From positions 32,166 to 69,789 of the forward strand of contig PBOD01000101.1 in NCBI GenBank assembly GCA_002724215.1: DNA of 37,624 nt, read 5' to 3'. The notes under the pieces are model-generated. The model ran no database searches and was not told where the DNA came from. It was given only the letters and a program-made list of their open reading frames with translations. The stretch's first letter is position 1; each line of letters opens with the position of its first letter. The position numbers and the translations under genes are program-made. Below are positions 11,987-33,770 of this stretch, in pieces. The DNA is from Gemmatimonadota bacterium. GTDB taxonomy: Bacteria > Latescibacterota > UBA2968 > UBA8231.

Positions 11987-13665
11987 TGCTGGGCCTGCAC
12001 ATCGCCGATATTGTGGTGCTCGTCGCCTATCTACTGGGGATTATCGCCATCGGGATCGGGGCCGCGCGCCTGATCAAAAATATGGGTGACTTCTTCATGC
12101 CCCGCAGCTTTGGCAAGAGTATGCTGGTGATGCACGCCTTCGGCACCGGCACCCATTCGGACCAGGCCGTCAGTGTCGCGTCCAAGACCTTTACCAGTGG
12201 ACTGTCGGGCATCTGGTATCAGTGGCTGTGGCTGTTCTGCACCCCGTTCTACTGGCTCATCGCGCCGATTATGCGGCGCTTCCGCGCGATTACGGTGGCC
12301 GATGTCTTCGCCGCGCGCTACCACCGCAGTGTCGGCATGCTCTTTGCGGTAGTGGGGATGTTCAATCTGATGGTGACGATCGGGGTGATGCTCAAGGGCT
12401 CGAGCGCGGTGGTGGCTTCATGCTTTGGCGATCAGGTCTCGCCAAATGTGATTATCGCGGTGATGACGGCGATGTTTCTGGCCTACGGGCTGGCCGGGGG
12501 ATTGGCGGCGGCGATAATCACCGACTTCGTCCAGGGCATCATGACCATCGTGTTCTCGTTTATCCTGCTGCCCTTCGCGCTGGAGGCGGTTGGGGGTATG
12601 GCGGGCCTGCGACAGGCGATTTCCGACCCGCAGATGTTTTCTCTGGTGGCGCCGGCGGAGATCGGCTTTTTCTATATCGCGATCATCGCGCTCAACGCGC
12701 TAATCGGCATCGTCACCCAGCCGCACACCATGGGCAATTGCGCTGCCGGGCGCACCGAGTCGGATGGTCGCTTCGGCTTTACCGTGGGCAGTTTTATCAA
12801 GCGGCTGTGCACTATGGCCTGGAGCCTGACGGGGCTGGCGGCGGTGGCGTATTTTGCCGGGCGCGAGGTAGATCCGGACCAGGTCTACGGGCTGATGGCG
12901 CGCGAGTTTCTGCCGGCGATCCTGCCGGGTTTGCTGGGCGTATTTCTCGCGGCCTTGCTGGCCTCGGTGATGAGCAGTTGCGATTCGTTTATGATCGCCT
13001 CATCGGCGCTATTCACCGAGAATGTCTACAAGCCGCTCAAGCCCGACCGCGAGCCGGGCCACTATCTGACGGTGGGGCGAATGACATCGCTGGTGGTGGT
13101 GGCCGGGGGCGTTATGTTCGCGTTTTGGCTGCCGGGAGTGGTCAAGGGATTGGAGATTTTCTGGAAGATTTCGCCGATGATGGGCATCGCGTTCTGGCTG
13201 GGGCTTTTCTGGCGTCGAGCGACTGTGGCCGGGGCCTGGGCATCGACTGGGGCGGCGTTTTTTATGTGGTGGCTAACCACGACCGAGGCCTTTGTCGGCT
13301 GGGCGGGCGCGCTGTCGCCGGGTTTTGTGCACAATGGCGAGATCTACCTGCCGTGGCAGATGATTTTCTATCTGGTGGCGGGTTTGGTAGCGGGAATTGT
13401 GGTCAGCTTGTTGACCGAGCCAGTAGCTGAAGAGCAGCTCGACCGCTATTACGAATTGGTGCGGACGCCGGTCGCAGCGGGCGAGCCAGTGCTGGAGGAG
13501 CCATGCACGATCCCCGCCGGGATCGCGATCCCGCCCAAGCGCAATGTCTTTACCGATAGCAGTATTGAGGTGATGGTGCCGGATAGAAGCTCGGTTTACG
13601 GCTTTGCCGCGTCGTGGGGTTTAGTCGGCGTGCTGATCTATTTTTTCTTTGCGGTAACGCGGTAG
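11986..13665 (+). CDS. Sodium:solute symporter family (SSS) transporter
   Basis: 559-aa inner-membrane transporter with about 13 hydrophobic helices and the LeuT-like SSS layout. Recognisable features are the N-terminal GDFFMPRSFGKS region, a GLAGGLAAAIITDFVQG segment (SSS consensus for the helix carrying the substrate/Na+ site), and LLASVMSSCDSFMIASSALFT-type helix 8 with clustered serines expected for sodium coordination. It would import a small organic solute (sugar, amino acid, proline/choline-like or carboxylate) with Na+. The start overlaps the desaturase stop by one base. The cytoplasmic C-terminal tail (about residues 475-535) ends with one more hydrophobic helix. Probably the uptake step for the compound processed by the upstream operon genes; the substrate is not predictable. 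Confidence 0.9.
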   Translation: MLGLHIADIVVLVAYLLGIIAIGIGAARLIKNMGDFFMPRSFGKSMLVMHAFGTGTHSDQAVSVASKTFTSGLSGIWYQWLWLFCTPFYWLIAPIMRRFRAITVADVFAARYHRSVGMLFAVVGMFNLMVTIGVMLKGSSAVVASCFGDQVSPNVIIAVMTAMFLAYGLAGGLAAAIITDFVQGIMTIVFSFILLPFALEAVGGMAGLRQAISDPQMFSLVAPAEIGFFYIAIIALNALIGIVTQPHTMGNCAAGRTESDGRFGFTVGSFIKRLCTMAWSLTGLAAVAYFAGREVDPDQVYGLMAREFLPAILPGLLGVFLAALLASVMSSCDSFMIASSALFTENVYKPLKPDREPGHYLTVGRMTSLVVVAGGVMFAFWLPGVVKGLEIFWKISPMMGIAFWLGLFWRRATVAGAWASTGAAFFMWWLTTTEAFVGWAGALSPGFVHNGEIYLPWQMIFYLVAGLVAGIVVSLLTEPVAEEQLDRYYELVRTPVAAGEPVLEEPCTIPAGIAIPPKRNVFTDSSIEVMVPDRSSVYGFAASWGLVGVLIYFFFAVTR

Positions 13666-14102
13666 TGGCCGACTCTGCACGGGGGCTCGATCCAAACTGG
13701 ACCTTGCTGTTTAGCGCCTGGTTTATCGCTTGCACCTCGACCCTGGGCAGCCTGTTTTTCAGCTACGTCATGGACTTCGCCCCGTGCGTGTTGTGCTGGT
13801 ACCAGCGGATATGCATGTTCCCGCTGGTCGTAATTCTCGCGCGTGGGCTCTTTCCATTCGACCGGAGTGTCATTAAGTACGCCCTGCCCCTGGCGGGTGT
13901 CGGTTGGCTGCTGGCGGCGTATCACAACTTGTTGCACGCGGGGTGGATCCCGGCCGATATGCAGCCCTGCGCCAAGGGCGTATCGTGCACCGAGGAATAC
14001 ATTGAACTATTCGGCCTGCTGTCGATCCCCGCGCTCGCGTTACTTTCGTTCACCGCACAAATATCTATTCTGATCGTCCTCAAGAGGAGAATCACCGAAT
14101 GA
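13665..14102 (+). CDS. dsbB: Disulfide bond formation protein DsbB/BdbC
   Basis: 145-aa inner-membrane protein with four hydrophobic helices. The two redox cysteine pairs of the DsbB family are in place: C41-V-L-C44 in the first periplasmic loop, followed by WYQR as in classical DsbB, and C102-x5-C108 in the second loop, the spacing typical of the BdbC type. It reoxidises a DsbA-like partner and passes electrons to quinones. The start is GTG 13665, overlapping the symporter stop by one base (TAGTG), which fits the length of the family; there is no separate Shine-Dalgarno, so translation is probably coupled. Its gene overlaps the DsbA-like gene by 4 nt, as expected for a functional pair. Confidence 0.92.
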   Translation: MADSARGLDPNWTLLFSAWFIACTSTLGSLFFSYVMDFAPCVLCWYQRICMFPLVVILARGLFPFDRSVIKYALPLAGVGWLLAAYHNLLHAGWIPADMQPCAKGVSCTEEYIELFGLLSIPALALLSFTAQISILIVLKRRITE

Positions 14103-14752
14103 ATCGCATCCTGTTCGTCGCAGCGGGCGCTGTCTTGATTGCGGCTTTTTTTATCGGCTCCTGGTACTACAAGAGGGAGCGGGCGGAGGAGCTCGGCTCG
14201 ATGGCGCAGGAACAGGCTTCGGTATTCGTACGGCCTCACTCGCCGATTCTCGGCAGCGATGATGCCAGGGTCACGCTGGTCAAATTTTCCGATCCCGCGT
14301 GCGAGACATGCGCGTCCTTCTCGCCCTTCGTCAAACAGGCACTGGATACTTTTCCCGGCCAGCTCAAACTGGTGCTGCGCTACGCTCCCTTCCACGAGGG
14401 ATCCGACGACGTAGTCCGCATTCTCGAGGCGGCGCGGAAGCAGGGGAAATTCTGGGAGACCCTGGAAATGCTCTACGAGCGGCAGAATGTCTGGACCCGG
14501 CACCACCGCGTGATCCTCAGCGCAGTCTGGCCGCTGCTGCCCGAGGTGGGGCTGGACGTCGAGCGGGTGAGGGTGGATATGCAGGAGCAGAAGATCGCGG
14601 CGATTATCGAGCAGGATTTGGCCGATGCCACGACCCTGGGCGTGCGCAAAACGCCGGGCTTTTTCGTCAACGGCAAACCGTTGCAGCCCTTCGGCGCGCG
14701 CCCGCTGGCGGCACTGATCAAGGCGGAAATCCGGGCAAAGTATCCCGAATGA
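14099..14752 (+). CDS. DsbA-like thioredoxin-fold thiol oxidoreductase
   Basis: 217-aa extracytoplasmic thiol oxidoreductase (Thioredoxin_4/DsbA type). One N-terminal hydrophobic segment (about 5-22) is followed by KRERAEE and looks like an uncleaved anchor. The active site is C68-E-T-C71 and the cis-proline is P186 in KTPGFFVNGKPL. A CETC dipeptide differs from the CPHC of E. coli DsbA and will change redox potential. The ATG overlaps the DsbB stop (ATGA), so the two are translationally coupled and most likely form one oxidation couple. This is the last gene of the plus-strand run; the next gene is convergent with 6 nt between stop codons and no visible terminator. Confidence 0.92.
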   Translation: MNRILFVAAGAVLIAAFFIGSWYYKRERAEELGSMAQEQASVFVRPHSPILGSDDARVTLVKFSDPACETCASFSPFVKQALDTFPGQLKLVLRYAPFHEGSDDVVRILEAARKQGKFWETLEMLYERQNVWTRHHRVILSAVWPLLPEVGLDVERVRVDMQEQKIAAIIEQDLADATTLGVRKTPGFFVNGKPLQPFGARPLAALIKAEIRAKYPE

Positions 14753-14758: not shown

Positions 14759-16396
14759 TCAGTCGAGCAGGCGGATGGTGCCGGCGCTGCCATCGACTTC
14801 GACTTGCTGCCCATCTTTGAGCTGATCGACTGCGTCCTTGACGCCAAGGACGGCGGGGATGCCGTACTCGCGGGCGACGACCGCGCCGTGGCTGAGTTTG
14901 CCGCCGGTCTGGGTCACCAGCGCGGCAATGGTGGCAAAGAGCGGTGTCCACGCCGGATTGGTGGTCACCGCGACCATAATATCGCCGGGTTGGATGGCGT
15001 CGGTGTCGGTCATCGCGCGCAGTACGCGGACCGGGCCGCGGGCGATGCCGGCAGCGCAGGGATTGCCGTGCAGGACGCCCGGCTCCTCGGGTAGCCGTTC
15101 TTTTTCTGCTCCGTCTTTCCTGGGTGGCGGCTCGACGCCGAGGCGATCGGGAGGAGTGATGGCGCTGAAGTGCTGGAAGGCGGCGCGGCGCTTGGCGACC
15201 AGGGGGCGCAAGTCTGCTGCAGGCGGGGCGGCGAGCGCGGTGTGGATTTCGTCACAATGGAGGAACAGGGCGTCCTCGGCTGCATCGATTGCGTCGGCGC
15301 TGGCGAGTCGGTGTCCGCAGGCCATAAGCACGTAGCGGATCCGGGCCGTGGATGCAAAATCGATGTAGACGCCGTGGTCCTCGGAGAGGATCATACCGGT
15401 TTGCGCCCATTGTAATAGTTGTTCGAAGCGGTCGCGCACCGGCTGCGGGAAATGAGTGAGTTTGGCCCGGGTTGCGGCGATGGCTTCATCGCGTTCAGCG
15501 GCCAGGCGGGTCATTTCGACGCGGGGGTCGCGGGCGTCGGGCTGCAGGTAGTCGCGCAGGTTTCTAAAAATCGGTGCCGGGTCTTCGCGCCAGGTCGGAT
15601 GGGCGATGGTCCAGGTCGGTGGGCGTTGGCCGTGCTGGTCGAGAAAGAGGTCGAGCGCAGCGGCGAAGTCTGCGTGGTCGGCGGCGCGCAGGGCGTCGAG
15701 CGTACAGCCAGGGGCGCGGAGCTGATCGGCGAGTGCGGGTTGATCCATAGCGCGGCGGCTCAGATCCCATAGCGCGTGGCCCATTGCGACGGTGAGGTTG
15801 GGCATGGCCTGGAACAGCCGCTGGGCGGCGAAGGGATCGGTTTTTTCGTCGTAGTCTGCGAAAAGCTCTTCGTAGTATTCGGCCAGCTTGCCCATGGCGT
15901 CGTAGGCCGGGCGGACGATGGCAAAGTGGATCGCCCACAGGCGCGGCAGGCGTTCCCATGTGTCGGCCAGATGGGCGGCTAGATCCTCCGGGGCGGCGCT
16001 ATCGAGGTCGAACTCGTCCCAGAAGGCTAGGTGGGCGAGTATTTCGGGCTGCCATTGCTCCTGCCAGCGGCGGCCCATTTCGGCCATAGCTTTTTCCTGG
16101 GCGGCTTCGTTGGTCTTTTTTGCAGTTTTCTTCGCGTCATCGTCCAGCAGCGTGCGCCTGCTGCTGTATAGATATCCGTTGAAACATCGGTCGCACATCT
16201 GGTAGACTGGCTCGAGGTCGAGGATCCGCAGGGTGTCTTGCCAGCCCAGGCCGGCCTGCTGCCAAAAATCGGCTTCCAACGGCGTAATGGGGTCGGGCCG
16301 ATGGTGGGTATCGCGCTCCCAGGTGTAGCCGGCCTCTTCCTCGCTTTCCCACGCGACGGGGAAATTTTCGGGCAGGGCGATGCGCTTGCTGGTCAT
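14759..16396 (-). CDS. PEP-utilizing enzyme mobile (phosphohistidine swivel) domain protein without ATP-grasp
   Basis: 545-aa protein. Only the C-terminus is recognisable: TQTGGKLSHG followed by AVVARE and GIPAVLGV (495-519), the PEP-utilizer mobile domain whose H503 is phosphorylated in PEP synthase, PPDK and enzyme I. The N-terminal 400 residues are helical and contain no ATP-grasp nucleotide-binding domain and no PEP-binding TIM barrel; a CDRC pair (residues about 67-70) is conspicuous near the N-terminus. Split enzymes with this layout are known: in phenylphosphate synthase, one subunit carries the histidine domain and another the ATP-binding part. No such partner is visible in the window. 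The start is ATG 16396, overlapping the upstream PhyH stop by 4 nt. Last gene of the nine-gene minus run. Catalytic independence is doubtful; a phosphoryl-transfer subunit is the best inference. Confidence 0.75.
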   Translation of the reverse strand: MTSKRIALPENFPVAWESEEEAGYTWERDTHHRPDPITPLEADFWQQAGLGWQDTLRILDLEPVYQMCDRCFNGYLYSSRRTLLDDDAKKTAKKTNEAAQEKAMAEMGRRWQEQWQPEILAHLAFWDEFDLDSAAPEDLAAHLADTWERLPRLWAIHFAIVRPAYDAMGKLAEYYEELFADYDEKTDPFAAQRLFQAMPNLTVAMGHALWDLSRRAMDQPALADQLRAPGCTLDALRAADHADFAAALDLFLDQHGQRPPTWTIAHPTWREDPAPIFRNLRDYLQPDARDPRVEMTRLAAERDEAIAATRAKLTHFPQPVRDRFEQLLQWAQTGMILSEDHGVYIDFASTARIRYVLMACGHRLASADAIDAAEDALFLHCDEIHTALAAPPAADLRPLVAKRRAAFQHFSAITPPDRLGVEPPPRKDGAEKERLPEEPGVLHGNPCAAGIARGPVRVLRAMTDTDAIQPGDIMVAVTTNPAWTPLFATIAALVTQTGGKLSHGAVVAREYGIPAVLGVKDAVDQLKDGQQVEVDGSAGTIRLLD

Positions 16397-17199
16397 CGGG
16401 CGGTCTCCTTGCTGGCGGCTAGGGCGGCGCGGGCTTGCTGCTGCGCATATCGCCAGCGCTCGGTGAGTGGACCGCCGTCGGCGTGGCTGACGATGTCGTG
16501 GATGGTGGCGCGCGGTTGGTAGGGCAGGTAGAGGCCGGTGTGCCAGGCCAGGTTGCGGTAGATCATAAAGTCGCCGGCATTGAGGTAGATCTGAACGGCA
16601 CCGGGCATGGCGCGGCAGTGCTCGAGGTAGAAGCGTTCGGCCTCGACGTGGGTGATATCCGGAGCCGGTTCGCGCATGCGGGGGTCGTCGGTGCTCTGCT
16701 GCTCGCCGGGCAAATCGAAGGAGCGCAGATGGCTGCCAGGGACGTACCAGGTGCAGGCGTCGGCGTAGAGCGCGCAATTGACCTGGTTAAATACGCGCAG
16801 GTCGTGCCAGACTTCGTCGAGGGCGGTACGGACTGCGTCGCTGCGGGCTGCGAGCGGGACTTCGACCACGCCGTCGCGGTGCCAGCCGCAGTGCCAGGGG
16901 TGGTCGAGCGGCTCGACCAGCAGGCCCATGATGTGGAGATGGCCATGGGTGTATCCGGGGCCGAGGAGTTTTGCCACCGCGTCTTTGAGCGCGGGTAATT
17001 CGACGTAGTCGCGGAAGGGCTGGAGGTCGATTTTGTCGCCGTACTGGTCCAGGGGTTGGATGCGCTGGGTCTGCGGGCCGTTGAGCTCGTGGGCCAGGTC
17101 GCGGGCGATATCGGCCTGGCGGCGCAGATCCGCGAGGAGGCTCGGCGGGACGATGCCGCGGAAGACGAGGTGTCCCCTGGTGAGATATTCGTCGAGCAA
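16393..17199 (-). CDS. Phytanoyl-CoA dioxygenase (PhyH) family protein
   Basis: 268-aa Fe(II)/2-oxoglutarate oxygenase. The iron ligands are H107-x-D109 (GWHRDG) and the distal histidine in AWHTGLY near residue 220, with an arginine nine residues later (QPRAT) as the 2-oxoglutarate anchor. An insertion of about 40 residues between the core strands (around 150-200) is longer than in the other copies here and may shape the substrate pocket. The gene starts 3 nt after the dehydrogenase stop and overlaps the PEP-swivel gene by 4 nt, so it belongs firmly to the nine-gene minus-strand operon. The close pairing with a phosphohistidine protein suggests the two act on the same intermediate; this is inference. 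Confidence 0.9.
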   Translation of the reverse strand: MLDEYLTRGHLVFRGIVPPSLLADLRRQADIARDLAHELNGPQTQRIQPLDQYGDKIDLQPFRDYVELPALKDAVAKLLGPGYTHGHLHIMGLLVEPLDHPWHCGWHRDGVVEVPLAARSDAVRTALDEVWHDLRVFNQVNCALYADACTWYVPGSHLRSFDLPGEQQSTDDPRMREPAPDITHVEAERFYLEHCRAMPGAVQIYLNAGDFMIYRNLAWHTGLYLPYQPRATIHDIVSHADGGPLTERWRYAQQQARAALAASKETAR

Positions 17200-17202
17200 G
17201 GG

Positions 17203-18189
17203 CTAGATATCGCGGTTGGTGACCAGGCCTTCGAGCGGCTCGCCGCGGGCGTAGCGGTCGAGATTGTCGGCGGCGAAGCGCGCGCGGTTGCGGGCAGTGC
17301 CATTGGTCGAGCCGGCGGTGTGGGGCATGGTGAAGACATTGGGCAGCCGATAGACGGGCAAATCGACATCGGGCGGCTCCTGCGCGAAGACATCGAGGCC
17401 GGCACCGCCCAGGCGGCCTTCCTCCAGAGCCTGGTAGAGCGCTTCCTCATCGACGAGTTCGCCGCGGGCGATATTGATCAGGCAGGCGCTGGTCTTCATT
17501 AGGCCGAGGCGCCGGGCGTTTATCGTGTGGTGGGTTTGCGGGGTGAGGTGGAGGTGCAGGGACAGATAATCGCTGTCGGCGACGAGTTGGTCGAGGTCGT
17601 CGGGGGTGCCCAGAAATTCGGGTTGGAGTTCGGCGAGAATCTCCTCCTCGATGGGGCGGATGTCGATGGCGTGTATTTTGAGGCCAAAGGGTTTGGCACG
17701 GCGGGCCAGCTCCTGGGCACTCGAGCCGAAGCCGACCAGGCCCAGGGTCTGGCCCGCGAGTTCGGTGCCGGTGGGCGAGTAGAGTTTGCCGGCGGCAAAG
17801 TTGGCGTGTGCCTCGGTGTATTTGTGCGCATGCATGAGGATGAACATCATTGCGCTCTGGGCCAGGGCGACGCTAGAGAGGTGGCCGGGGCAGTGGGCGA
17901 GCGTCAGGCCGGCGTCGAGGATTTCCTCGACGTGGACGTGGTCGAGGCCAGTGGTCTGGGCCTGGAGGTATTTGACGCCGGCCGCAGCGGCGATGGGGAT
18001 GAGGTCTTTGGTGATATTGCCGCCGAGATCGACGATGACTTCGATGTCGGCGAATTGGGGTCCAGGAGAAGCGGAGCGGTCGAAGATGCTGAGGTTGTGG
18101 GTGCGGGATATGAGGTCGGTTATTTCGGTATTCCAGGATTTCAGCACGTCGTTGGGATGCGGGAGAAAGAGGACGTTGAGTGTGCGCAT
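17203..18189 (-). CDS. D-isomer-specific 2-hydroxyacid dehydrogenase
   Basis: 328-aa NAD(P)-dependent dehydrogenase of the D-2-hydroxyacid family (glycerate, lactate, phosphoglycerate type). The Rossmann motif G153-F-G155 (GLVGFGSSAQE) is present, with D176 after the second strand favouring NAD+. The catalytic triad is complete: R242 (NIARGELVDE), E271 (FAQEP) and H290 (MPHTAG). AHCPGHLSSVALA near 100-110 is the usual inter-domain block. It would interconvert a 2-hydroxyacid and a 2-oxoacid in the cytoplasm. AGGA sits 5 nt before the ATG. A 110-nt spacer separates it from the upstream Ldh-type gene, so an internal promoter is possible. The operon also holds a second, unrelated dehydrogenase for similar substrates. 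Confidence 0.93.
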   Translation of the reverse strand: MRTLNVLFLPHPNDVLKSWNTEITDLISRTHNLSIFDRSASPGPQFADIEVIVDLGGNITKDLIPIAAAAGVKYLQAQTTGLDHVHVEEILDAGLTLAHCPGHLSSVALAQSAMMFILMHAHKYTEAHANFAAGKLYSPTGTELAGQTLGLVGFGSSAQELARRAKPFGLKIHAIDIRPIEEEILAELQPEFLGTPDDLDQLVADSDYLSLHLHLTPQTHHTINARRLGLMKTSACLINIARGELVDEEALYQALEEGRLGGAGLDVFAQEPPDVDLPVYRLPNVFTMPHTAGSTNGTARNRARFAADNLDRYARGEPLEGLVTNRDI

Positions 18190-18299
18190 CGGGATCCTGA
18201 TTTGAGGGTTAGGTGCGTGCGGGCAGGTTGCGGGGATGCTCAGTAGTCACTTGGTGATTAGGGTAAAGTGGAATGCAGGTCTGCACAAGGGAGAGGCTG

Positions 18300-19361
18300 C
18301 TAGATGACAATGGTTTGTGCCTCGGCAGCGTCCAGGCCGAGTTCATTGGCAGTGCTGATCAGAGTCTGCCAGGTGGTGTCGTCGACAGCGATGCCATTGG
18401 CGAGATTGTGCTGGCGATTGCGCTCTTCTATTTCGCCGGGCATCAGGATATCGTCGACGCCGGGGGCTTTGCGCGAGCTTTTGACGAAGTCGATGAAGCG
18501 CTGGACTTCGACGGTGAAGCCGAGTTCGGCCGGCAGGCGTTCGCAGTCGATGATCAGCGAGTACATGCCGTTGAGCAGGCGCTGGTCATTGGCGGGGTTG
18601 GAGCAGGAGTTGCCGGTCAGCGCGCCGGCAAACATTTCGGCGATGACGCTGAGGCCGTAGCCCTTGTGGCCGCCGAAGGGCAATAGCACGCCCGGCGGAT
18701 CGGTGTAGAAGCGGGCGGGATCGGTGGTGGGCTGGCCCTGGTTGTCGATGATGCAGCCGGGCGGCACGTCGGTGCCCTTGTTGAGCGCGACCTTGAGCTT
18801 GCCCTCGGCGGTGGCGCAGGTCGAGATGTCGAGTATGATCGGCAGACCGTCTTTGACCGGCACACCGGCGGCGAGGGGGTTGGCCGAGAGGCGGCGATCG
18901 ATGCCGCCGAAGGGTGCGGTGAGCAGGCCGTAGCCGCTGGTGTTGACGAAGTGGAACGAGGCCATGCCGGCGCGCGCGACCAGCGTCGGCCAGTCGCCGA
19001 TGCGGCCGAGGTGGGCGCTGTTGCGCAGCGACACAGTGGCGATGCCGTGCTTTTTGGCCATGTCGATCCCCAATTGCATGGCCTGCTCGCCGATGACCTG
19101 GCCGAAACCGAAATTGCCGTCGACAATGGCCATCGAGTCGGTCTGGAAGATCACGCGCAACGATTGGTTGGGGCGCACCTGGTCGTTTTTTACATAGTCG
19201 ATATAGTAGGACACGCGGATGATGCCGTGCGAGTCGTGGCCGACGAGGTTGGATTCGACGAGGTAGTGGGCGACGCGTTCGGCTTCGTGGGCGTTGGAGC
19301 CGGCGCGTTCGAAGATCTGTTGGACGAAGGGGCGGAGCTTGTCGGGGTTGAGGAGCGGCAT
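18300..19361 (-). CDS. Malate/L-lactate/ureidoglycolate dehydrogenase family (Ldh_2) protein
   Basis: 353-aa NAD(P)-dependent dehydrogenase of the Ldh_2 family, which has its own fold unrelated to classical lactate dehydrogenases. Typical blocks are ESNLVGHDSHG (36-46, H45 near the active site), DGNFGFGQVIG (about 85-95), RNSAHLGRIG (about 113-122), LDISTCATAEGKL and FGGHKGYGLS. Members oxidise L-malate, L-lactate, L-sulfolactate, ureidoglycolate or other 2-hydroxyacids. It lies 3 nt after the cyclase gene and is followed by a 110-nt gap. Together with the D-2-hydroxyacid dehydrogenase it could invert the stereochemistry of a 2-hydroxyacid through the 2-oxoacid (as in sulfolactate catabolism), an idea suggested only by context. 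Confidence 0.93.
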   Translation of the reverse strand: MPLLNPDKLRPFVQQIFERAGSNAHEAERVAHYLVESNLVGHDSHGIIRVSYYIDYVKNDQVRPNQSLRVIFQTDSMAIVDGNFGFGQVIGEQAMQLGIDMAKKHGIATVSLRNSAHLGRIGDWPTLVARAGMASFHFVNTSGYGLLTAPFGGIDRRLSANPLAAGVPVKDGLPIILDISTCATAEGKLKVALNKGTDVPPGCIIDNQGQPTTDPARFYTDPPGVLLPFGGHKGYGLSVIAEMFAGALTGNSCSNPANDQRLLNGMYSLIIDCERLPAELGFTVEVQRFIDFVKSSRKAPGVDDILMPGEIEERNRQHNLANGIAVDDTTWQTLISTANELGLDAAEAQTIVI

Positions 19362-19364
19362 GGT

Positions 19365-20009
19365 CTATTCTGCTATCGTGGCGAAGGCGCGCACCGGCGA
19401 GCCGTCGCGTCCAGCGATGGCCAGCGGGATGGCGCTGAAGGTAAAGGCGTTGTCGCCGATCTCGGCGAGATTGGTGAGGTTTTCCACGATGAGTACGTCG
19501 TGGCCCAGCAAGACGAGGTGTGCCGGGTGCGGCGGGCGATCGACCGAGGGAAAGTCGACGCCGATCAGGCGCACTTTGCAGTCGACGATGAGTTGTGCGG
19601 CGGCGGCGGTGAGCACGGGGTGCTCGCTGAAGAAGCCGGGTTGCCGCCATTGTTCATACCAGCCGGTATTGATAATGAGATGTGGGTGGCCGGCGATGGC
19701 ATCGCGATGGGGCGCGAGATCGATTTCGTCGATGACGGGGCATTCGCAGAGGTCGATTTTGTACGCAGGGCCGGCACAGTCGGCGAGCGGAATCTGGTCG
19801 ATGGTGGCGCGGTCGGCGTAGAAGTGGAAGGGCGCGTCGATATGGGTGGCGCAGTGGATCGGCAGGGTGATCTGGGCGCAGTTGAGGCTCTGACGCTCTT
19901 CGCGGCCGGTCTGGTCGGTGGATTGCAGGATTTTGATGGCGACGGCCGGGTCGCCTGGGAAGGGCGGGGTGTCGTCGGTCAGTGGATGGCTGAGGTCGAT
20001 AAGCGGCAT
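19365..20009 (-). CDS. Cyclase-family metal-dependent hydrolase (kynurenine formamidase-like)
   Basis: 214-aa protein of the cyclase/KynB family. The metal motif H52-x3-H56-x-D58-x-P-x-H62 (HCATHIDAPFH) matches the family signature HxGTHxDxPxH with a Cys-Ala in place of the usual Gly. Such enzymes hydrolyse formamides, cyclic amides or act in isatin and polyketide chemistry using Zn or Mn. The N-terminal IDLSHPLTDDTPPFPGD is the second characteristic block. It is separated by 3-4 nt from both neighbours and is part of the nine-gene minus-strand operon. KynB itself is unlikely, as no other kynurenine pathway gene is present. A ring-opening or amide/ester hydrolysis step between oxygenation and dehydrogenation would fit. 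Confidence 0.9.
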   Translation of the reverse strand: MPLIDLSHPLTDDTPPFPGDPAVAIKILQSTDQTGREERQSLNCAQITLPIHCATHIDAPFHFYADRATIDQIPLADCAGPAYKIDLCECPVIDEIDLAPHRDAIAGHPHLIINTGWYEQWRQPGFFSEHPVLTAAAAQLIVDCKVRLIGVDFPSVDRPPHPAHLVLLGHDVLIVENLTNLAEIGDNAFTFSAIPLAIAGRDGSPVRAFATIAE

Positions 20010-20013
20010 TGGA

Positions 20014-20832
20014 TCAATCCCAAACCACGGGGCGGTAGCGCTTCAATAGCTGCTTGCCCCGTGCGGACAGGGCACGGTACGAGGATTCGGGCATCTTGAT
20101 GGTTTGATCGATGTGCCAGAAGTTGCGGCCGTAGCAGAGGCAGAGCTCGGGCCGGGGGTCGGGGCTGGGGTTGGGGGTACCGCGGTGTAAGGTGCGAACG
20201 TCTTGCACCCACATCGCGCCCTTGTTGAGATTGAGGCGGTGGGCGGAGGGGAAGTGCCCTTTGCCCAGGATTTCGTCGTAGTGGCCCTCGTATTCGGGCA
20301 GGGCCAGATACTGGGTTGAAGGCAGGACTTCGAAGCTGCCATTTTGTTCGGAGGTGTCGCACAGCGGGTATTTGACGCCGACGATGGGGACGGTCTCCGG
20401 GCCGACGTGAGGGATGTCGTTGCCGATGTTGGTATCGCGGTGCCAGTGCTGGAAGACGCTGCCGTGACAGGGGGTGTTGGAATGGTAGCAGGTGAGGATA
20501 TAGCCGTCGGGCTTCCACAGGCGGTCGAGGAATTCGAGGATGACCGGGTGTTCGTAGATTTCGGGGTCGGCAAAGGGAGCGAGCCAGGGGATGGTCAGGG
20601 TATAGCGGTTGGTGGTTTGCAGCCGGCCCATGCCGGTGCGCGGGTCGCCGCGCTCGCCGAGGTCGTGGACTTCGGTCTCGCGCTCCTGCACGTTGGCCAG
20701 CAGGGGCAGGAAGGCGGCGCGGATGGCATCGACTTTTTCCGGCGCGATCATATCGTCGAAGACGGTATAGCCATTGATCCTGAACTCGGCGATTTTGAGG
20801 TCGAAGTCGACGTCTTGGCAGGAGAGGGTCAC
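20014..20832 (-). CDS. Phytanoyl-CoA dioxygenase (PhyH) family protein
   Basis: 272-aa Fe(II)/2-oxoglutarate oxygenase. The facial triad is H131-x-D133 (WHRDT) and H216 (TLHRGTP). The start is GTG 20832, three bases after the aldolase stop, with GAAGGA about 9 nt upstream; the frame is open further upstream, but that segment lies inside the aldolase gene and does not look like PhyH. The region after the distal histidine (NPSPDPRPELCL) contains the expected arginine. It lies between the HpcH/HpaI aldolase and the cyclase-family gene with almost no spacing, so expression is surely joint. One of four oxygenases in this operon; identity to the others looks low outside the motifs, arguing for different substrates rather than recent duplication. 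Confidence 0.88.
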   Translation of the reverse strand: MTLSCQDVDFDLKIAEFRINGYTVFDDMIAPEKVDAIRAAFLPLLANVQERETEVHDLGERGDPRTGMGRLQTTNRYTLTIPWLAPFADPEIYEHPVILEFLDRLWKPDGYILTCYHSNTPCHGSVFQHWHRDTNIGNDIPHVGPETVPIVGVKYPLCDTSEQNGSFEVLPSTQYLALPEYEGHYDEILGKGHFPSAHRLNLNKGAMWVQDVRTLHRGTPNPSPDPRPELCLCYGRNFWHIDQTIKMPESSYRALSARGKQLLKRYRPVVWD

Positions 20833-20834
20833 GA

Positions 20835-21557
20835 TTATTTGTCCTTCAATTCGGCCAGTAGCGCGCTGCCGCGGTCGAGCAGGAGGTCGAGGTCGGATTT
20901 GAGCGTAATGGCTTGGAAGCCGGCGGCCTTTTGCGCGGCAAAGTCGTCGGGCGAATAGGTGTTGCAACAGGCGAGTTTGCCGGCGGCGAGGGTGGTGTCA
21001 ATGACCTTCTTGAGCGCGGCCTTTTGCGCGGGTTCTTTTTCGTACTCTTCGCGGTGGCGCGACAGGCCCAGCGAGATGGCGAGGTCGACCGGGCCGACGA
21101 AACAGCCGTCGACGCCGGGCAGGGCCATGATGTCGGCGCAGGCATCGACGCCGTCGATGTGTTCCATCTGCACTAAGAGCAGCGTGTCGTCGTTGGCCTT
21201 TTCGAAGTAGTCGGCGCCGTAGTGGAGAAAGTTGTCGCCGCCCAGAGAGCGGACGCCGGTAGGCGGGTATTTGGCGGCATCGGCGACGGCTTTGGCGGTG
21301 CCCAGCGAGTTGACCATGGGCACCACGATGCCGCCGGCGCCGAGGTCGAGGGCCTTTTCGACATCGCCGGGGGCGCCGATGGCGGTGCGGACCAGTGGCC
21401 GGGCGCCGGTAGCGCGGATGGCGTGGATGCACTCGTAGGCGGTCTCCCAGTTCATGGCGCCGTGCTGGAGGTCGAGGATGATCCAGTCCCAGCCCATCTG
21501 TCCGAGATAGCGCGAGATCATGGGTTGGGGGATGCTCTGCCAGATGCCGATGGTCAT
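20835..21557 (-). CDS. HpcH/HpaI aldolase/citrate lyase family protein
   Basis: 240-aa class II (metal-dependent) aldolase of the HpcH/HpaI type, which cleaves 4-hydroxy-2-oxoacids to pyruvate plus an aldehyde. Characteristic blocks are GWDWIILDLQHG (22-33, with H32), RPLVRTAIG (53-61, substrate-binding R57), GAGGIVVPMVNS (73-84), QMEHIDGV (130-137, metal ligand E132) and FVGPVDLAISLG (153-164, metal ligand D158). The TIM-barrel length is about right. The start is ATG 21557, because the frame upstream enters the neighbouring PhyH gene; GAGGGG lies roughly 12 nt upstream. It could produce or consume the 2-oxoacid or hydroxyacid handled by the two dehydrogenases downstream in the operon. Confidence 0.93.
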   Translation of the reverse strand: MTIGIWQSIPQPMISRYLGQMGWDWIILDLQHGAMNWETAYECIHAIRATGARPLVRTAIGAPGDVEKALDLGAGGIVVPMVNSLGTAKAVADAAKYPPTGVRSLGGDNFLHYGADYFEKANDDTLLLVQMEHIDGVDACADIMALPGVDGCFVGPVDLAISLGLSRHREEYEKEPAQKAALKKVIDTTLAAGKLACCNTYSPDDFAAQKAAGFQAITLKSDLDLLLDRGSALLAELKDK

Positions 21558-21574
21558 TTGTCGCGAAGATCCCC

Positions 21575-22513
21575 TCAACTCGAAAAACCAGGCGTTCCGC
21601 GCCCTCGGCCCGCCGCCTGGTTGAGCTGCATGCTGCCCGCGCTCTCCTCGCTGCGGGCGTCTTCGTCCCATAGATCCAGGCCGAGCAGTTTTCTGCCCAG
21701 TGGGGTCAACGCGGCGGTGGTGCCGTATTCGCGCTCCCAGTTGCGCGGGTCGCCGGGGAAGGGATTGCCTTGCGGCGCCCGGCGGTGCAGCCAGGCGTCG
21801 ATGCGCCACTGGCGCGCCTTTTCGTTTTGCTCTTGGGCGGGCGACATCGACATGTACTGCGCCATGCGCGGCTGGTCGGAAGTGTTGGGGCTGACGCCAT
21901 GCGGGAGCTGGCTATTCCAGATCAGCAGGTCGCCGGCTTCGATCGGAATCGTCTCAATGGTCAATCCGCGGATATCGGGTTTGTGCGGATCGCGGTCTTT
22001 AGGCTGGGTCTTGATCCACTCGGGCAGGCGTTTGGGCATGCCGGGAACGCACTGGAAGCCACCCTGGCCGGGCACGGTGTCGGTGAGGCTCAAGATGCCC
22101 TGGACGTCGAAGGGCAGCGGATCGAGCGCGGTGTCGATATCCCAGTGGATGAAGCCTTTAAAATCGAACTCACCGCGGTTGGGCACGTTGAGATTGCAGC
22201 GATCGATGCTGGTCCACAGCTTTTCGGTGTTCCAGATATCGACGAAGGCACCGTAGATTCTGGGCAACTGGCGGATGGCCCACATCGCCGGGTGGTGGTA
22301 CATCTCGATCATGCCCGAGCCGTTGAGTTCGGCCATGCCGTTTTCGCGCTCGGGCTTGCGGTACCAGGTGTCGGGATCGCCGGGTTCCATCTCCTGAAAT
22401 TTCCAGATCGCATCGACGACGGCCTGGACCATATCGGGCGGCGCGGCCTGGCGGACGATGACGTAGCCCAGGTCGTCGAAGCAGGCGCGATCCTGCGGCG
22501 TGAGTACGCGCAT
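21575..22513 (-). CDS. Phytanoyl-CoA dioxygenase (PhyH) family protein
   Basis: 312-aa Fe(II)/2-oxoglutarate oxygenase. Ligands are H123-x-D125 (IHWDID) and H205 (LPHGVSP), with R216 as probable 2-oxoglutarate anchor. The chosen start, ATG 22513, is preceded by GGGGAA about 7 nt upstream; the frame continues further upstream but into the neighbouring oxygenase gene. The C-terminus has an extra tail of about 40 residues (LGRKLLGLDLW and a Ser/Gly-rich end). It is the second gene of the nine-gene run, 17 nt after the first oxygenase and 17 nt before the aldolase. The FQCVPGMPKR block replaces the more usual PGSH, marking it as a distinct PhyH subgroup. Confidence 0.88.
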   Translation of the reverse strand: MRVLTPQDRACFDDLGYVIVRQAAPPDMVQAVVDAIWKFQEMEPGDPDTWYRKPERENGMAELNGSGMIEMYHHPAMWAIRQLPRIYGAFVDIWNTEKLWTSIDRCNLNVPNRGEFDFKGFIHWDIDTALDPLPFDVQGILSLTDTVPGQGGFQCVPGMPKRLPEWIKTQPKDRDPHKPDIRGLTIETIPIEAGDLLIWNSQLPHGVSPNTSDQPRMAQYMSMSPAQEQNEKARQWRIDAWLHRRAPQGNPFPGDPRNWEREYGTTAALTPLGRKLLGLDLWDEDARSEESAGSMQLNQAAGRGRGTPGFSS

Positions 22514-22530
22514 CGATTGTTCCCCGTGGT

Positions 22531-23364
22531 TTATGACCAGACGAAAATCTCTTCGCGGTCTGCGGCCATCGCGCAAAAGAAAGCCAGCACTACGCGCGGC
22601 GTTGCGCGCGCGACGGGGGGCACCGCGTGGATGTTTTCGGTATAGAAGAAGTAGAGGTCGCCTGGCTCGAGTAGCACTTGAGCACAGGCGATTTTTTGTG
22701 CCTGGACGTATTCATCCCACTGCCCAGCGCGGACCAGGGCGTCGATTTCGTCGTCGGCGTAGCAATCGTAGATGAAGGGTTCGCCGTCGGGTTCGGCGCT
22801 CTGCATGCAGAGGATGCCGGCGAACTGGTGGTCGAATTGGGCGGCGGCGTAGTGCGAGCGCTCGCCCGAGCGGCGAGCCAGCGAATCGTAGTGGGCGCGG
22901 TGGCCCTCGTCGCCGTGGTAAATGCGGAAGATGGCCGGGCCATAGCGGCGGCCGTCGGGCTCGCAGGCGGTGTGAACCTCTTTGTCGGGCGCCAGTTTTT
23001 GCAGGGCGTTGTACATAGTTGCGACGGGGTCGGCGAAGCCGTCGAAGAGATGGGAGAAAAGCTGGTGGGTGCGCGCGGCATGGGCGAAAAAGGCGTCCGG
23101 GTCGGCGCCGGTCCGCCCCATGCTGGTGCCGAGGTCGAGATAGGAGCCGCCGCTGAGCTGGCTCTCTTGATCGACGGTGTCGCGGCTGAAATAGCCGCGC
23201 TCGGCAAAGCGCTGCATCAGCCCGGTGGCGTGCTCGGACGGGTAGGCATTGCGCAGGACCAGGGCGGGTATCTGGCGCTGGGCCAGGGCTTCCAGGGGCC
23301 GCGGGTAGCGCGCGAGGATCTGGTCGAGATCGGCCTCGAAGGGCTGCCAGTGAGTGGTCGTCAT
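22531..23364 (-). CDS. 2-oxoglutarate/Fe(II)-dependent oxygenase-like protein
   Basis: 277-aa protein that is not a typical PhyH but shows the same double-stranded beta-helix logic: H158-x-D160 (AHYDSL), a distal histidine H246 (NIHAVPP) and R257 as probable 2-oxoglutarate anchor, spaced as in the superfamily. The N-terminal 120 residues are helical. An EPGDLYFFY strand (233-241) precedes the distal histidine, as in cupin-like oxygenases. First gene of the nine-gene minus-strand operon. Its ATG has no Shine-Dalgarno, and the -10 box of the putative promoter ends 7 nt before it, so the message may be leaderless. Substrate unknown; chlorinating or hydroxylating relatives exist, but the Asp ligand here argues for hydroxylation rather than halogenation. 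Confidence 0.8.
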   Translation of the reverse strand: MTTTHWQPFEADLDQILARYPRPLEALAQRQIPALVLRNAYPSEHATGLMQRFAERGYFSRDTVDQESQLSGGSYLDLGTSMGRTGADPDAFFAHAARTHQLFSHLFDGFADPVATMYNALQKLAPDKEVHTACEPDGRRYGPAIFRIYHGDEGHRAHYDSLARRSGERSHYAAAQFDHQFAGILCMQSAEPDGEPFIYDCYADDEIDALVRAGQWDEYVQAQKIACAQVLLEPGDLYFFYTENIHAVPPVARATPRVVLAFFCAMAADREEIFVWS

Positions 23365-23480: not shown

Positions 23481-25997
23481 TTAGTCGCGGGGCCAGTGGG
23501 CGTCGAGCAGGCGGCGGGCGGCGTCGGTGTCGGTCTGCGCCAGGTAGGTTTTTACCTGAGCGCGGACCCGGTCGTCGGTGCCGTGTAAGGCGCCGGTGAG
23601 AATGCGCTCGTAGAGGCCGAGCGCCTCGTCCGTCCGTCCCTTTTCCTGGTAGAGGCGGCCGAGGAACAGGTGGGCGTAGACATGGTCGATGCCCAGCTCG
23701 ACGGCTCTGCCCAGATCCTCAAGCGCGGCCTCGGATTGGCCGCGCTCGAGCGCCAGACTGCCCAGCTTGAAGTAGTTTTCGGGATCGGTGGGAGCGAGTT
23801 CGGTGGCGCGGCGCAGCGCCTGTGCCGCCTCGTCGGGGCGACCCATCGCGTGCAGGACCACGCCGAGGTCGTGTTGGGGGGGCGCGTGGTACGGGTCGAG
23901 GCGGATGGCTTCGCGGTAGGCGGCTGCCGCTGCGGGGCGGTTGCCAGTGCGGAAGTAGAGCGTGCCGAGGTTGGCGTGATCCAGAGCGACGGCCTGGCCG
24001 AGGCCGATGATCTTTTCGAGGCTGGCGAAGGCGGTCTGGTGGTGGCCGGCGCGGCTGGCCAGGCGCGCCAGACCGCGGTGACCGGCTATGTGATTGGCGT
24101 CGAGGGCTAGGCTCTGGCGATAGGCCCTTTGCGCCGGTGCGGGCTCGCCGGCCTCCTCGTGGCATTCTCCCAACAGGGCGTAGAGGTCGGCGCTGGGCCG
24201 GGCGGCGAGCGCCTCTTCGCAGGCGGCAATCGCTTCCCGAAAGCGACCGTCGAGCTGCAGGGCCATAATCGCGGCGTAGGCGACGCCACTGTCGCTGGCA
24301 TCGGCGTCCTGGGCCTGGTGCAACAGCGCGGCGGCTGCTCCGGCCTGGCCCTGCTTGTAGCGGATCGCGCCGAGCCGCTTGAGCGCCTTGACGTGGTCGG
24401 GGGCGAAGACCAGAGCGTGCTGGTAGGCGGCGATGGCGCGGTCGAGGTAGAGGGAATCGCTGTGCGATTGGTAGATGCCCTCGTAGCCCAGGCCCAGATT
24501 GGTGTAGACGTGGGATAGCGCGACACTGGCCCTGGCGTGGCCTTGCAGCGCCTCGAGGCGCGGTTGTTCGGCGAAGCCGGGCAGCAGCGAGCGGTAGGCG
24601 AGGTCGTAGATCTGCAGATAGGCGTTTTGCGGGAAGCGCGCCAGCCCGTCTTCGAGGACAGCGACCGTCTCGAAGGGATGGCGCATTAGGGCCATTGAGA
24701 GCCGGACGTAGGCGTCCTCGAGATTGATCAATTCGGGTGCGCGCGTCATGGCCTGGCGCAATTGCGCGGCGCCGGTGCTGTCGTCTGCGGCCGAGAGATA
24801 GGTGCGGCCCGAGTTGTAGTAGGTCAGCGCCTCGGCCCGGTGCAGCGCGCGATAGGAGCTAAAGGCCAGGGCGAGGATGGCGAGTGCCAGCGCGAGTTGG
24901 CGGCCGCCGGGCAGGGCGTGCGCGCCCCGGCGCAGTCCCCAGGCCATCAGCAGCGCGGTGCCGGCGCTGGGAAAGTAGAGATAGCGCGACGGACCGACCG
25001 GCAGGGCGACGATGCTTTCTTCGGTGAGCAGGACGAAGGGCACCAGGAAGAACAGCGTCCAGCCGGCCCATAGCGCGGCGGGGGCTGGTCGGCGCCAGAT
25101 AATCAGCGCGAGGGCGGCGACGACCAGCGCGCCGGCGGCGTATTCCCAGCTAGCGCGCTGGTGTTGTGGCCAGGTTATCCAGTGCGCGGTGGTCAGCAGG
25201 CGGCCGGCCAAAAAGAGCGTCGAGCGCAAGATGCCCGCTATCAGCTCCCACAGCCCGGCGACCGAAAAGAAATCGAGCGCCTCCCAGGTGCTGGTGCGTT
25301 TGGCGGTGAAGTGGAGAATCAGGGCCAGGGCGGGGGCGAGCAAGGCGGCGAAGGGGATCAGTTCGCGCGCGGCGCGGCGCGGGCTGTGGCCCCGCAGCCA
25401 GGCGAGGTAGCAGCAGAAGGGCCAGGCCATCAGACTGGCCAGATGGCTGAAGGCGCCCAGGATCAGGCTGGCGTAGCAGGCGGCGAGCCAGTGCGGGCGC
25501 TGGGTGTCGCCGTAGCGCAGATAGGACAAAACTGCAGCGAGGGCCAGCGCGAAGGCGAGGATGTAGTTAAAGCCGGAGAGCCAGTGGATGGCGCGGAAGT
25601 GGGCGACGTTGAGCAGGAAGAGCAGTCCGCCGAGCAGGCCGAGCTCGATATCGGCACCAGCGCGAACGAATAAGTACGCCAACAGCAGGCTGGCCAGAAA
25701 GTGCAGGGCGACGACCAGCAGATGGAAGGCGGCCGGGTCGGGGCCGAAGGCCAGGTGGAAAAGCCACATGGCAAATTCGTGCAGCAGGCGGCCGGAAGCC
25801 TGTTCTTTTTCGGGCGAAAAGAAATAGCCGAAGTCGGCGCTGACTTTTGCATTGTCGCGGAAGGTTTCGAAGTCGTGGGTTTCGAGCAGGTGGAAGCGCA
25901 GGTTGCCGAAGCAGGCCCAGGTCAAAACGGCCATCAACAGGGCGTAGGCGGCCCAGGTGCGGGGCGTAGAGGGCAGGTTGAAAAGGGTCGCGGGCAT
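23481..25997 (-). CDS. Membrane protein with C-terminal TPR repeats (GT-C-like)
   Basis: 838-aa protein in two parts. Residues 1 to about 385 hold roughly ten hydrophobic helices with a large early extracytoplasmic loop (about 30-75, containing ETHDFETFRD), the layout of GT-C polyprenyl-phosphate-sugar transferases and of the many membrane/TPR proteins in environmental genomes. Residues about 390-830 are a long run of 34-residue TPR units (for example GRPDEAAQALRRATELAPTD and similar copies), probably more than ten. A glycosyltransferase or a scaffold at the inner membrane is plausible, but no catalytic acidic pair is certain. It is a single-gene unit, divergent from the enolase-superfamily gene and 117 nt upstream of the oxygenase operon, which runs in the same direction. 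No clear Shine-Dalgarno precedes the ATG. Confidence 0.75.
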   Translation of the reverse strand: MPATLFNLPSTPRTWAAYALLMAVLTWACFGNLRFHLLETHDFETFRDNAKVSADFGYFFSPEKEQASGRLLHEFAMWLFHLAFGPDPAAFHLLVVALHFLASLLLAYLFVRAGADIELGLLGGLLFLLNVAHFRAIHWLSGFNYILAFALALAAVLSYLRYGDTQRPHWLAACYASLILGAFSHLASLMAWPFCCYLAWLRGHSPRRAARELIPFAALLAPALALILHFTAKRTSTWEALDFFSVAGLWELIAGILRSTLFLAGRLLTTAHWITWPQHQRASWEYAAGALVVAALALIIWRRPAPAALWAGWTLFFLVPFVLLTEESIVALPVGPSRYLYFPSAGTALLMAWGLRRGAHALPGGRQLALALAILALAFSSYRALHRAEALTYYNSGRTYLSAADDSTGAAQLRQAMTRAPELINLEDAYVRLSMALMRHPFETVAVLEDGLARFPQNAYLQIYDLAYRSLLPGFAEQPRLEALQGHARASVALSHVYTNLGLGYEGIYQSHSDSLYLDRAIAAYQHALVFAPDHVKALKRLGAIRYKQGQAGAAAALLHQAQDADASDSGVAYAAIMALQLDGRFREAIAACEEALAARPSADLYALLGECHEEAGEPAPAQRAYRQSLALDANHIAGHRGLARLASRAGHHQTAFASLEKIIGLGQAVALDHANLGTLYFRTGNRPAAAAAYREAIRLDPYHAPPQHDLGVVLHAMGRPDEAAQALRRATELAPTDPENYFKLGSLALERGQSEAALEDLGRAVELGIDHVYAHLFLGRLYQEKGRTDEALGLYERILTGALHGTDDRVRAQVKTYLAQTDTDAARRLLDAHWPRD

Positions 25998-26140: not shown

Positions 26141-27412
26141 ATGAAAATCGTTCGCGCCGAGCGCATTGCTCTCAATTTGCCCTTCTATCACCGCCGCGTA
26201 TCCCACGCCATGCATCGCGCCTCGACCCATGGCGAGCGCGTGTGGGTTGTGCGGCTGGAAGCCGACAATGGTCTGGTCGGCTGGGGCGATGATCTGGGCT
26301 GGGACGAATACTGGGATTTCGGCGGCGCGCCGCCGCCGCGGCCGGCAGTTGATCACTTGATCGGGCGCAATCCGGTGGCGGTGATGTTCGACGACGGGCT
26401 GGGCTTCGCGGCGCAGGTGGCGGTGTTAGACCTGGTCGCCCGGGACAATGGCGTGCCGGTCCACGCGCTGCTGGGACAGAAGGTGCGCGACCGGTGCCCG
26501 ATTTCGTGGTGGGATATCGACATGCCGCCCGCCGACTGGGCGGCCGAGGCGAGGGAATCGGTCGTGCGCGGGTATGCGTCGTTCAAGATGAAGGCGCGAC
26601 CGTGGCGCGATATTTTCGCCCAGGTCGAGGCGGCGGCTGCGGTGGTGCCCGGCGATTACAAATTCGATATCGATTTCAACGGTTTCCTGCTCGACCAGGC
26701 GCGGTCTGAGATTTGCCTGGCGGCGCTGGACGGGCACCGCAATGTCGGGATGTACGAAACGCCCTTCGCGCTGGCTGCTGATCTAGACGGCGCCCGGCTC
26801 CTGCGCGAGCGCGCGGTCAAGCCGCTAATTGAGCACTTCAGCGATACGGTGTGGGCGGCGGATTGTTGCGACGGCTTCGTCGTATTGGGTGGGGTGGAGA
26901 AAATGCGTCGCGATGCAGCGCTGGCTGCGGCGCATAACAAACCGTTCTGGCTGCAGTTGGTGGGCACGGGGATTACCACGGCGTTTACCGTGCAGTTGGG
27001 TTCGGTGCTGAGCCACGCGCAGTTGCCCTATATCACCTGTCACGAGTTGTGGAAGCACGATCTGCTCAAAAAGCGCCTGGACGTTGTGGACGGTTATATT
27101 GCGGTGTCGGACCAGCCCGGTCTGGGCATTGCCGTCGATGAAAAGGCGATCGAGAAATACCGCGTCGACGAGTGCGAGCCGTCGCCCAAAAGGCTCTATC
27201 GCGAAAAAAAGCGCATCCTGCGAGTGCAATGGCCCGGTGTCGCCGGCAAGAAGCGCGTGTGGGAGTTCACTACAGAGGCCAACTACCAGCGGTCCTTTTA
27301 CGCCGGCAATATCCCGCCCTTTGAGCGCGGGGTCGAGCTGGAGATCGTCGAGGGCGACAGGAGCGCGGCGTTTAAGAGGCGGCATGCGCAGCTGGTGGCG
27401 CAGGGGCGCTAA
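26141..27412 (+). CDS. Mandelate racemase/muconate-lactonizing enzyme family protein
   Basis: 423-aa enolase-superfamily enzyme. The N-terminal capping domain (1-120) is followed by the barrel with the KxK motif K149-M-K151, where the second lysine is the usual catalytic base, and metal ligands D178 (FDIDFN), E206 (MYETP) and probably E231 (LIEHFSD). The HELWKH block (301-306) may supply the general acid/base on the other face. Family members racemise, epimerise or dehydrate 2-hydroxyacids such as sugar acids. About 60 extra C-terminal residues (after about 355) with KRLYREKKRILR are longer than in typical members. It is monocistronic, with a candidate promoter upstream and a convergent SDR gene downstream. 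An acid-sugar dehydratase is a reasonable guess but unproven. Confidence 0.88.
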   Translation: MKIVRAERIALNLPFYHRRVSHAMHRASTHGERVWVVRLEADNGLVGWGDDLGWDEYWDFGGAPPPRPAVDHLIGRNPVAVMFDDGLGFAAQVAVLDLVARDNGVPVHALLGQKVRDRCPISWWDIDMPPADWAAEARESVVRGYASFKMKARPWRDIFAQVEAAAAVVPGDYKFDIDFNGFLLDQARSEICLAALDGHRNVGMYETPFALAADLDGARLLRERAVKPLIEHFSDTVWAADCCDGFVVLGGVEKMRRDAALAAAHNKPFWLQLVGTGITTAFTVQLGSVLSHAQLPYITCHELWKHDLLKKRLDVVDGYIAVSDQPGLGIAVDEKAIEKYRVDECEPSPKRLYREKKRILRVQWPGVAGKKRVWEFTTEANYQRSFYAGNIPPFERGVELEIVEGDRSAAFKRRHAQLVAQGR

Positions 27413-27436: not shown

Positions 27437-27556
27437 CTACCGCAGCGCGCCTCCCCAAGACGATCGCTCGACCAGTTGCCACTGTAGTTTTACCCGCCCG
27501 TCCCGTGTTTCAGGTTGTATTCCACGCCTTCTTTCTTCCGTTAACTGATTTAGCTG
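27437..27556 (-). pseudogene. Possible remnant of a LacI/GalR-type regulator C-terminus
   Basis: A minus-strand frame without a start, ending at TAG 27437, encodes QLNQLTEERRRG, then ETRDGRVKLQWQLVERSS and WGGALR. The VxLxxxLVxRxS ending is like the last strand of LacI-family effector domains. The frame uses codons unusual for this window (AGA, AGG, ATA, CTA, TTA). It begins within the end of the SDR gene in another frame, so nothing upstream of it survives. I read it as a decayed 3' end; a chance match over about 39 residues is possible. Confidence 0.35.
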
Positions 27557-33763: not shown

Positions 33764-33770
33764 GCTCCCC

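Follow-up and report, generated by a model that had tools for sequence, protein, structure and literature searches.

Oxygenases of the PhyH family have multiplied greatly in a number of uncultured marine phyla, and for hardly any of them has a substrate been established. Such expansions, mostly of unknown function, have already been described for Poribacteria (PMC3909097), and PhyH-family enzymes are able to O-demethylate ribose-methylated nucleosides (PMC12709175). Other described systems relevant here are the class II aldolases HpaI, GarL and RhmA of sugar-acid and homoprotocatechuate degradation, the WelO5-type carrier-protein-independent halogenases, the dehydrogenase pair SlcC/ComC, proposed as a two-component sulfolactate racemase (PMC12421959), and phenylphosphate synthase, phenylphosphoamidate synthase and rifampin phosphotransferase. 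Genes resembling all of these come together in a nine-gene operon (g1 to g9 in the order of transcription) of an uncultured marine bacterium deposited as Gemmatimonadota and classified in the Latescibacterota. The operon lies in a stretch of 37,624 nucleotides, the window analyzed here (GenBank assembly GCA_002724215.1, contig PBOD01000101.1, positions 32,166 to 69,789). It is a real, conserved operon of known families with an unusual, lineage-specific and apparently undescribed gene set, read here, with a probability of about 0.45, as a catabolic module that would oxygenate a decorated polyhydroxy carboxylic acid and then cleave a C-C bond.

The original prediction, made from the letters of the window and its open reading frames (ORFs), described nine closely spaced genes as a single operon. 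The ORF coordinates and starts bear out this run (14759-23364, minus strand), with intergenic distances of 17, 17, 2, 4, 3, 110 and 3 nt from g1 onward and a 4-nt overlap of g8 and g9, and the family calls proved correct, with Pfam or NCBIfam matches above cut-off for eight genes and a sub-threshold PhyH match for g8. Eight of the nine genes are kept in two metagenome-assembled genomes (MAGs) of the same genus, G005 (Candidatus Latescibacterota SZUA-1027, record DQLG01000344.1) and G006 (SI037_bin186, contig 40, record JABHFS010000116.1, deposited as Gemmatimonadetes), in the order TPR gene, g1, g2, g3, g5, g6, second aldolase, g7, g8 and g9, the last split across a contig end. Order and strand are unchanged although the shared proteins differ by 16-36% between species; the arrangement, which might have been peculiar to one assembly, is thus not a chance one, and the single-operon layout is supported. 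Because the ratio of nonsynonymous to synonymous substitution rates (dN/dS) of the eight shared genes is 0.11-0.26 between the window and these two genomes (for g9, G006 only), the genes are real. The deposited phylum names conflict, yet the three genomes are classified in one genus, and JABHFS010000116.1 was likely misnamed at deposit.

No further full copy of the operon was found in the 47 genomes of the class that were compared or in a strict scan of ~85,000 species. Among the class genomes, orthologues of g5 and g6 above 70% identity occur only in G005 and G006; the wider scan, run with two strict peptide patterns of g6 that divergent copies would escape, returned the same two genomes. So far, the operon is known from only three species, all in a single Latescibacterota genus. 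Its set of families had been said to match no familiar pathway, and this still holds: the only equivalog model scoring above its cut-off is that of HcxB, for g6, and a literature text search joining PhyH, aldolase, 2-hydroxyacid dehydrogenase and gene cluster gave no paper. A promoter and terminator scan found sites no more numerous than in shuffled sequence.

Table 1. Genes of the operon and neighboring features in the window
Feature	Position	Strand	Description	Evidence
DsbB and DsbA-like genes	13614-14752		Converge on g9	
g9	14759-16396	-	545 aa, predicted phosphohistidine (PEP-utilizer) subunit of a split dikinase-type kinase, His503	PF00391
g8	16393-17199	-	268 aa, divergent PhyH-type oxygenase, TTG start, H107-R-D109	PF05721 (sub-threshold), homologues
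g7	17203-18189	-	328 aa, D-2-hydroxyacid dehydrogenase	PF02826, catalytic residues
110-nt gap	18190-18299	-	Site of a second HpcH/HpaI aldolase (272 aa) in G005 and G006, missing in the window	
g6	18300-19361	-	353 aa, Ldh_2 (malate/L-lactate-type) 2-hydroxyacid dehydrogenase, HcxB-like	PF02615, NF007504
g5	19365-20009	-	214 aa, cyclase-family metal hydrolase, arylformamidase-like	PF04199
g4	20014-20832	-	272 aa, PhyH-type oxygenase, GTG start, H131-R-D133	PF05721
g3	20835-21557	-	240 aa, HpcH/HpaI class II aldolase	PF03328, catalytic residues
g2	21575-22513	-	312 aa, PhyH-type oxygenase, HWD at 123-125	PF05721
g1	22531-23364	-	277 aa, WelO5-like Fe(II)/2-oxoglutarate oxygenase	PF22814, phmmer to WelO5 structures, residues
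TPR gene	23481-25997	-	838-aa membrane/TPR protein	
Enolase-superfamily gene	26141-27412		Nearest gluconate/galactonate dehydratase	
SDR gene	27550-28383		Closest to gluconate 5-dehydrogenase/KduD	
Cupin and metallo-hydrolase genes	33678-35386			

The genus also holds a shorter version of the locus. Four further species (G002, G003, G004 and G010) carry a three-gene run, SDR-g3-g4, in which g3 (76% identity) and g4 (73-76%) are arranged as in the window and g1, g2 and g5-g9 are missing. The SDR gene of this mini-operon is the orthologue of the one upstream of the operon in the window, and the runs adjoin orthologues of the cupin and metallo-hydrolase genes; no other genes of the operon than g3 and g4 were found to accompany each other beyond these three species of the genus. 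The operon apparently grew round this SDR-aldolase-oxygenase core, with the TPR gene, g1 and g2 inserted upstream and g5-g9 downstream, and its growth from a core of two or three genes is traceable among sister species. In G005 and G006, g4 is absent from the operon, and a complete aldolase gene stands between g6 and g7, at the place of the 110-nt gap; its best match in the window's own genome (G000) is only 41% identical. A degraded remnant of it in the gap was rejected, nothing recognizable appearing in a three-frame translation. The simplest reading is that g4 may later have been lost in one branch and the second aldolase in the other.

The four oxygenases differ in how firmly their families are marked. 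The first, g1, matches the WelO5 family over its whole length (PF22814, 86 bits against a cut-off of 27), with a predicted iron site formed by H158-Y-D160 and H246 and with R257 as the candidate 2-oxoglutarate arginine; the HxD, the distal histidine and the arginine are conserved in both orthologues. WelO5 halogenases have a glycine at the position of D160, and the WelO5-type sequence aligned to g1 reads HVG there. Because g1, like both orthologues, keeps HxD and has no halide-binding HxG, it should hydroxylate rather than halogenate, and a halogenase assignment was rejected. The HxD motif is present alike in g2, g4 and g8. Two of these exceed the 22-bit cut-off of PF05721, g2 with 47 bits (HWD) and g4 with 51 bits (HRD); g8 scores 19.5 bits, under that cut-off, but all seven of its scanned homologues match PhyH (best E value 4.9e-10) and share an invariant WHRD. 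Orthologues of g2 in G005 and G006 are 81-82% identical, relatives elsewhere 43-58%. Structure predictions from three-sequence alignments were unusable (mean predicted local distance difference test score of 33 for g8 and 38 for g1). In a plasmid collection, g1 and g8 had no match, and the operon was absent from all eight plasmid loci inspected, which hold relatives of g2, g4 and g9.

The mutual similarity of the four oxygenases is minimal (best blastp E value 0.003), and nearer kin of each are found elsewhere in the genome or class. Since they are hardly alike and have these closer outside relatives, they were recruited separately, and tandem duplication was rejected as their origin. Four oxygenases in one operon are less striking in this genome, because the 5.85-Mb MAG holds at least 150 PhyH (PF05721) genes (297 candidates at first look) and other PhyH-dense stretches: among 150 listed matches, about ten other 8-kb stretches have three or four, where random placement expects ~3 such stretches. 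On contig 196, four PhyH genes lie inside 4 kb. The Poribacteria expansions likewise comprise very many diverse PhyH genes but belong to a different phylum, and the cited portion of that account describes no operon of this kind (PMC3909097). With four unrelated oxygenases, an aldolase and two dehydrogenases, the operon offers a defined, testable enzyme set for finding one PhyH substrate, though its biochemistry is still a prediction.

The separate origins of the oxygenases bear on whether the operon is one system at all. Repeated insertion into one transcribed locus could have accreted neighbors from two or more unrelated pathways, as the lack of mutual duplicates and the varying composition might suggest, g4 and the second aldolase having been gained or lost and the enolase-superfamily gene occurring only in the window. 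This is nevertheless unlikely, given that eight genes have stayed in one order and on one strand in species whose proteins are 16-36% apart, that all are under purifying selection and that g8 and g9 overlap.

The middle of the operon encodes the aldolase, the hydrolase and both dehydrogenases. Alignment shows the HpaI-type catalytic set of His, Arg, Glu and Asp to be complete in g3 (LQHG, VRT, MEH and GPVD; PF03328, 96 bits). Thus, g3 shares its family and catalytic residues with HpaI, GarL and RhmA but falls under every aldolase equivalog cut-off, including that of HpaI (132 bits against 369). Similarly, g5 (PF04199, 100 bits) keeps the metal motif HxxTHxDxPxH, as HCATHIDAPFH, and matches kynurenine formamidase structures, with a score against the KynB arylformamidase model TIGR03035 (110 bits) that lies below the cut-off of 223. 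In addition to its Pfam match (PF02615, 347 bits), g6 exceeds the cut-off of the HcxB-type hydroxycarboxylate dehydrogenase model NF007504 (367.4 bits against 336). It also has a sub-threshold match to the L-sulfolactate dehydrogenase (ComC) model, in keeping with a presumed family relationship of SlcC to g7 and of ComC to g6. The Arg, Glu and His catalytic residues of g7 (PF02826, 176 bits) are present in the alignment.

The last gene, g9, appears to encode part of a kinase. It scores 88 bits against the PEP-utilizers family (PF00391), its C-terminal 355 aa match rifampin phosphotransferase structures, and His503, in GGKLSH, is invariant across 12 aligned relatives, as befits the phosphorylatable histidine of an alpha subunit. 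The C-terminal phosphohistidine domain with its histidine and the long N-terminal part are shared with phenylphosphate synthase, phenylphosphoamidate synthase and rifampin phosphotransferase; g9 differs in that its ATP-grasp partner is not in the operon, the protein itself having no ATP-grasp domain and a Pfam scan of the operon genes detecting no PPDK_N beta subunit. The original prediction of a swivel-domain phosphohistidine protein thus had the family right, but could not see that g9 is only half of a kinase. The phenylphosphoamidate synthase of Desulfatiglans anilini has the same two-subunit design, and in that bacterium a single pathway draws enzymes from different gene clusters (PMC7500099).

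The sole stand-alone PPDK_N gene of the window's genome lies on contig 18, beside a g9 paralogue, and G005 and G006 likewise have one each, away from the operon. Because all three genomes have such a gene elsewhere, a shared ATP-grasp partner for g9 is possible. In six loci of the class, g9 relatives (39-43% identity) stand directly after a stand-alone PPDK_N gene and before an MFS gene. This recurrent module (L055-L059 and L066) of PPDK_N ATP-grasp subunit, swivel subunit and MFS transporter resembles a split kinase of the dikinase type that is accompanied by an exporter. Swivel genes without an adjoining PPDK_N gene are g9, its orthologue in G006 and one further gene each in G006, G011 and G042, which form no supported clade in a tree. 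The pairing of PhyH and orphan swivel genes recurs: g8 precedes g9 in the window, and a different PhyH gene lies 80 nt upstream of an orphan swivel gene in G011. G042 has no PPDK_N match whatsoever, so that either this MAG is incomplete or the case counts against a shared partner. A plasmid of Thermomicrobium roseum (NC_011961.1, 54300-65940; L146) carries another uncharacterized split-kinase operon, with genes for a cyclase-family protein, a stand-alone PPDK_N, a flavin adenine dinucleotide protein, a fumarylacetoacetate hydrolase, a small monooxygenase, a swivel protein and xanthine-dehydrogenase subunits. It is quite unlikely, though worth stating, that the operon oxygenates, phosphorylates and then cleaves its substrate. 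A hydroxyl made by the PhyH enzymes would then be phosphorylated by a shared split kinase, of which g9 would be one of the interchangeable subunits that set specificity. If this were true, several alpha subunits of differing specificity would share one ATP-grasp subunit as a modular kinase. The orphan phosphohistidine subunit in any case raises the question whether split kinases have subunits in common.

As a catabolic module, the operon would have as its substrate, for instance, a sugar acid that is O-methylated, branched or dehydrated and that comes from polysaccharide of algae or particles. Earlier Latescibacteria genomes have been described as those of algal polysaccharide degraders (PMC4454575). 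The four oxygenases would hydroxylate or oxidatively remove O-alkyl groups at different positions or on substrate variants, g5 would open an ester, lactone or amide, g6 and g7 would oxidize a 2-hydroxy group or invert it via the 2-oxo acid, and g3 would cleave a 4-hydroxy-2-oxo acid into pyruvate and an aldehyde. In a kinase of two parts, g9 would be the subunit for phosphotransfer and substrate; because the operon has no ATP-grasp gene, g9 would have to borrow that subunit, such as the contig 18 copy, or have another role. The step order, the substrate and the part of g9 are what we infer; the aldolase and dehydrogenase families are assigned from profiles. The conserved order, the dN/dS values, the catalytic residues and the complete HpaI-type aldolase, which with g4 recurs more widely in the genus, are consistent with such a module, as are the O-demethylation by PhyH-family enzymes (PMC12709175) and the racemase role proposed for the SlcC/ComC pair (PMC12421959).

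The original prediction left the choice between breakdown and biosynthesis open. Near the operon lie the SDR gene, the enolase-superfamily gene (between the SDR and TPR genes, not found at the corresponding place in G006) and genes for an inositol/levoglucosan-dehydrogenase-like protein, an arylsulfatase, a GH32 protein and a sodium:solute symporter, the last of which stays near g9 in G006. Distant g4 relatives in Azospirillum, Skermanella and Caballeronia adjoin LacI regulators and sugar ABC transporters, in one case together with an aldose 1-epimerase. Because of the sugar-type dehydrogenases, the dehydratase-like enolase protein, the sulfatase and the symporter nearby, and of the g4 relatives beside sugar ABC transporters, the context favors breakdown, without proving it. 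Several observations weigh against the proposed catabolic role: every equivalog model except HcxB stays below its cut-off; the operon itself includes no transporter, regulator or sugar-acid kinase; g9 has no kinase partner nearby; the enolase-superfamily and SDR genes may or may not share the pathway; and g2 relatives occur in biosynthetic-looking loci, which makes a biosynthetic role possible.

In a biosynthetic cluster, the four oxygenases would serve as tailoring enzymes for a small secondary metabolite, condensation would be the task of the aldolase, and g9 would take part in a ligase or kinase like PigC, RedH or rifampin phosphotransferase. The membership of g1 in the WelO5 family of tailoring enzymes, the match of the g9 C-terminus to RedH/PigC models and the g2 relatives of Streptomyces and Agrobacterium (43-49% identity), which adjoin carbamoyltransferases, MFS exporters and a condensation-domain protein, are in keeping with this. 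However, no carrier protein, nonribosomal peptide synthetase, polyketide synthase, terpene, ligase or exporter genes were found in or beside the operon, the exporter-bearing g9 relatives form a separate module, and the surroundings are of the sugar type, so a biosynthetic role is rather improbable.

The architecture of g9, that of an alpha subunit with a phosphorylatable histidine (PMC7500099), also bears on whether a phenol- or amine-like substrate is phosphorylated, as by phenylphosphate or phenylphosphoamidate synthase, and then oxidized. The T. roseum relative, placed with cyclase-family, PPDK_N, fumarylacetoacetate hydrolase and xanthine-dehydrogenase genes, points the same way, but the operon has no PPDK_N beta subunit and no UbiD-type carboxylase, ring-cleaving or CoA-ligase gene, which leaves this route very doubtful. 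A route for sulfolactate or another C3-sulfonate, with g7 and g6 as SlcC and ComC, is the most improbable: the operon likewise pairs an Ldh_2-type dehydrogenase with an adjacent D-2-hydroxyacid-type one, and has an aldolase, but the 223 bits of g6 against the L-sulfolactate dehydrogenase model fall far under the cut-off of 500, and neither the SuyA/SuyB sulfolyase nor a sulfite exporter was found among the operon and neighboring ORFs.

Two sets of genes border the operon itself. The membrane/TPR protein encoded directly upstream is 67% identical in G005 and G006, and at the other end the stop codons of g9 and of the converging DsbB and DsbA-like genes are 6 nt apart.

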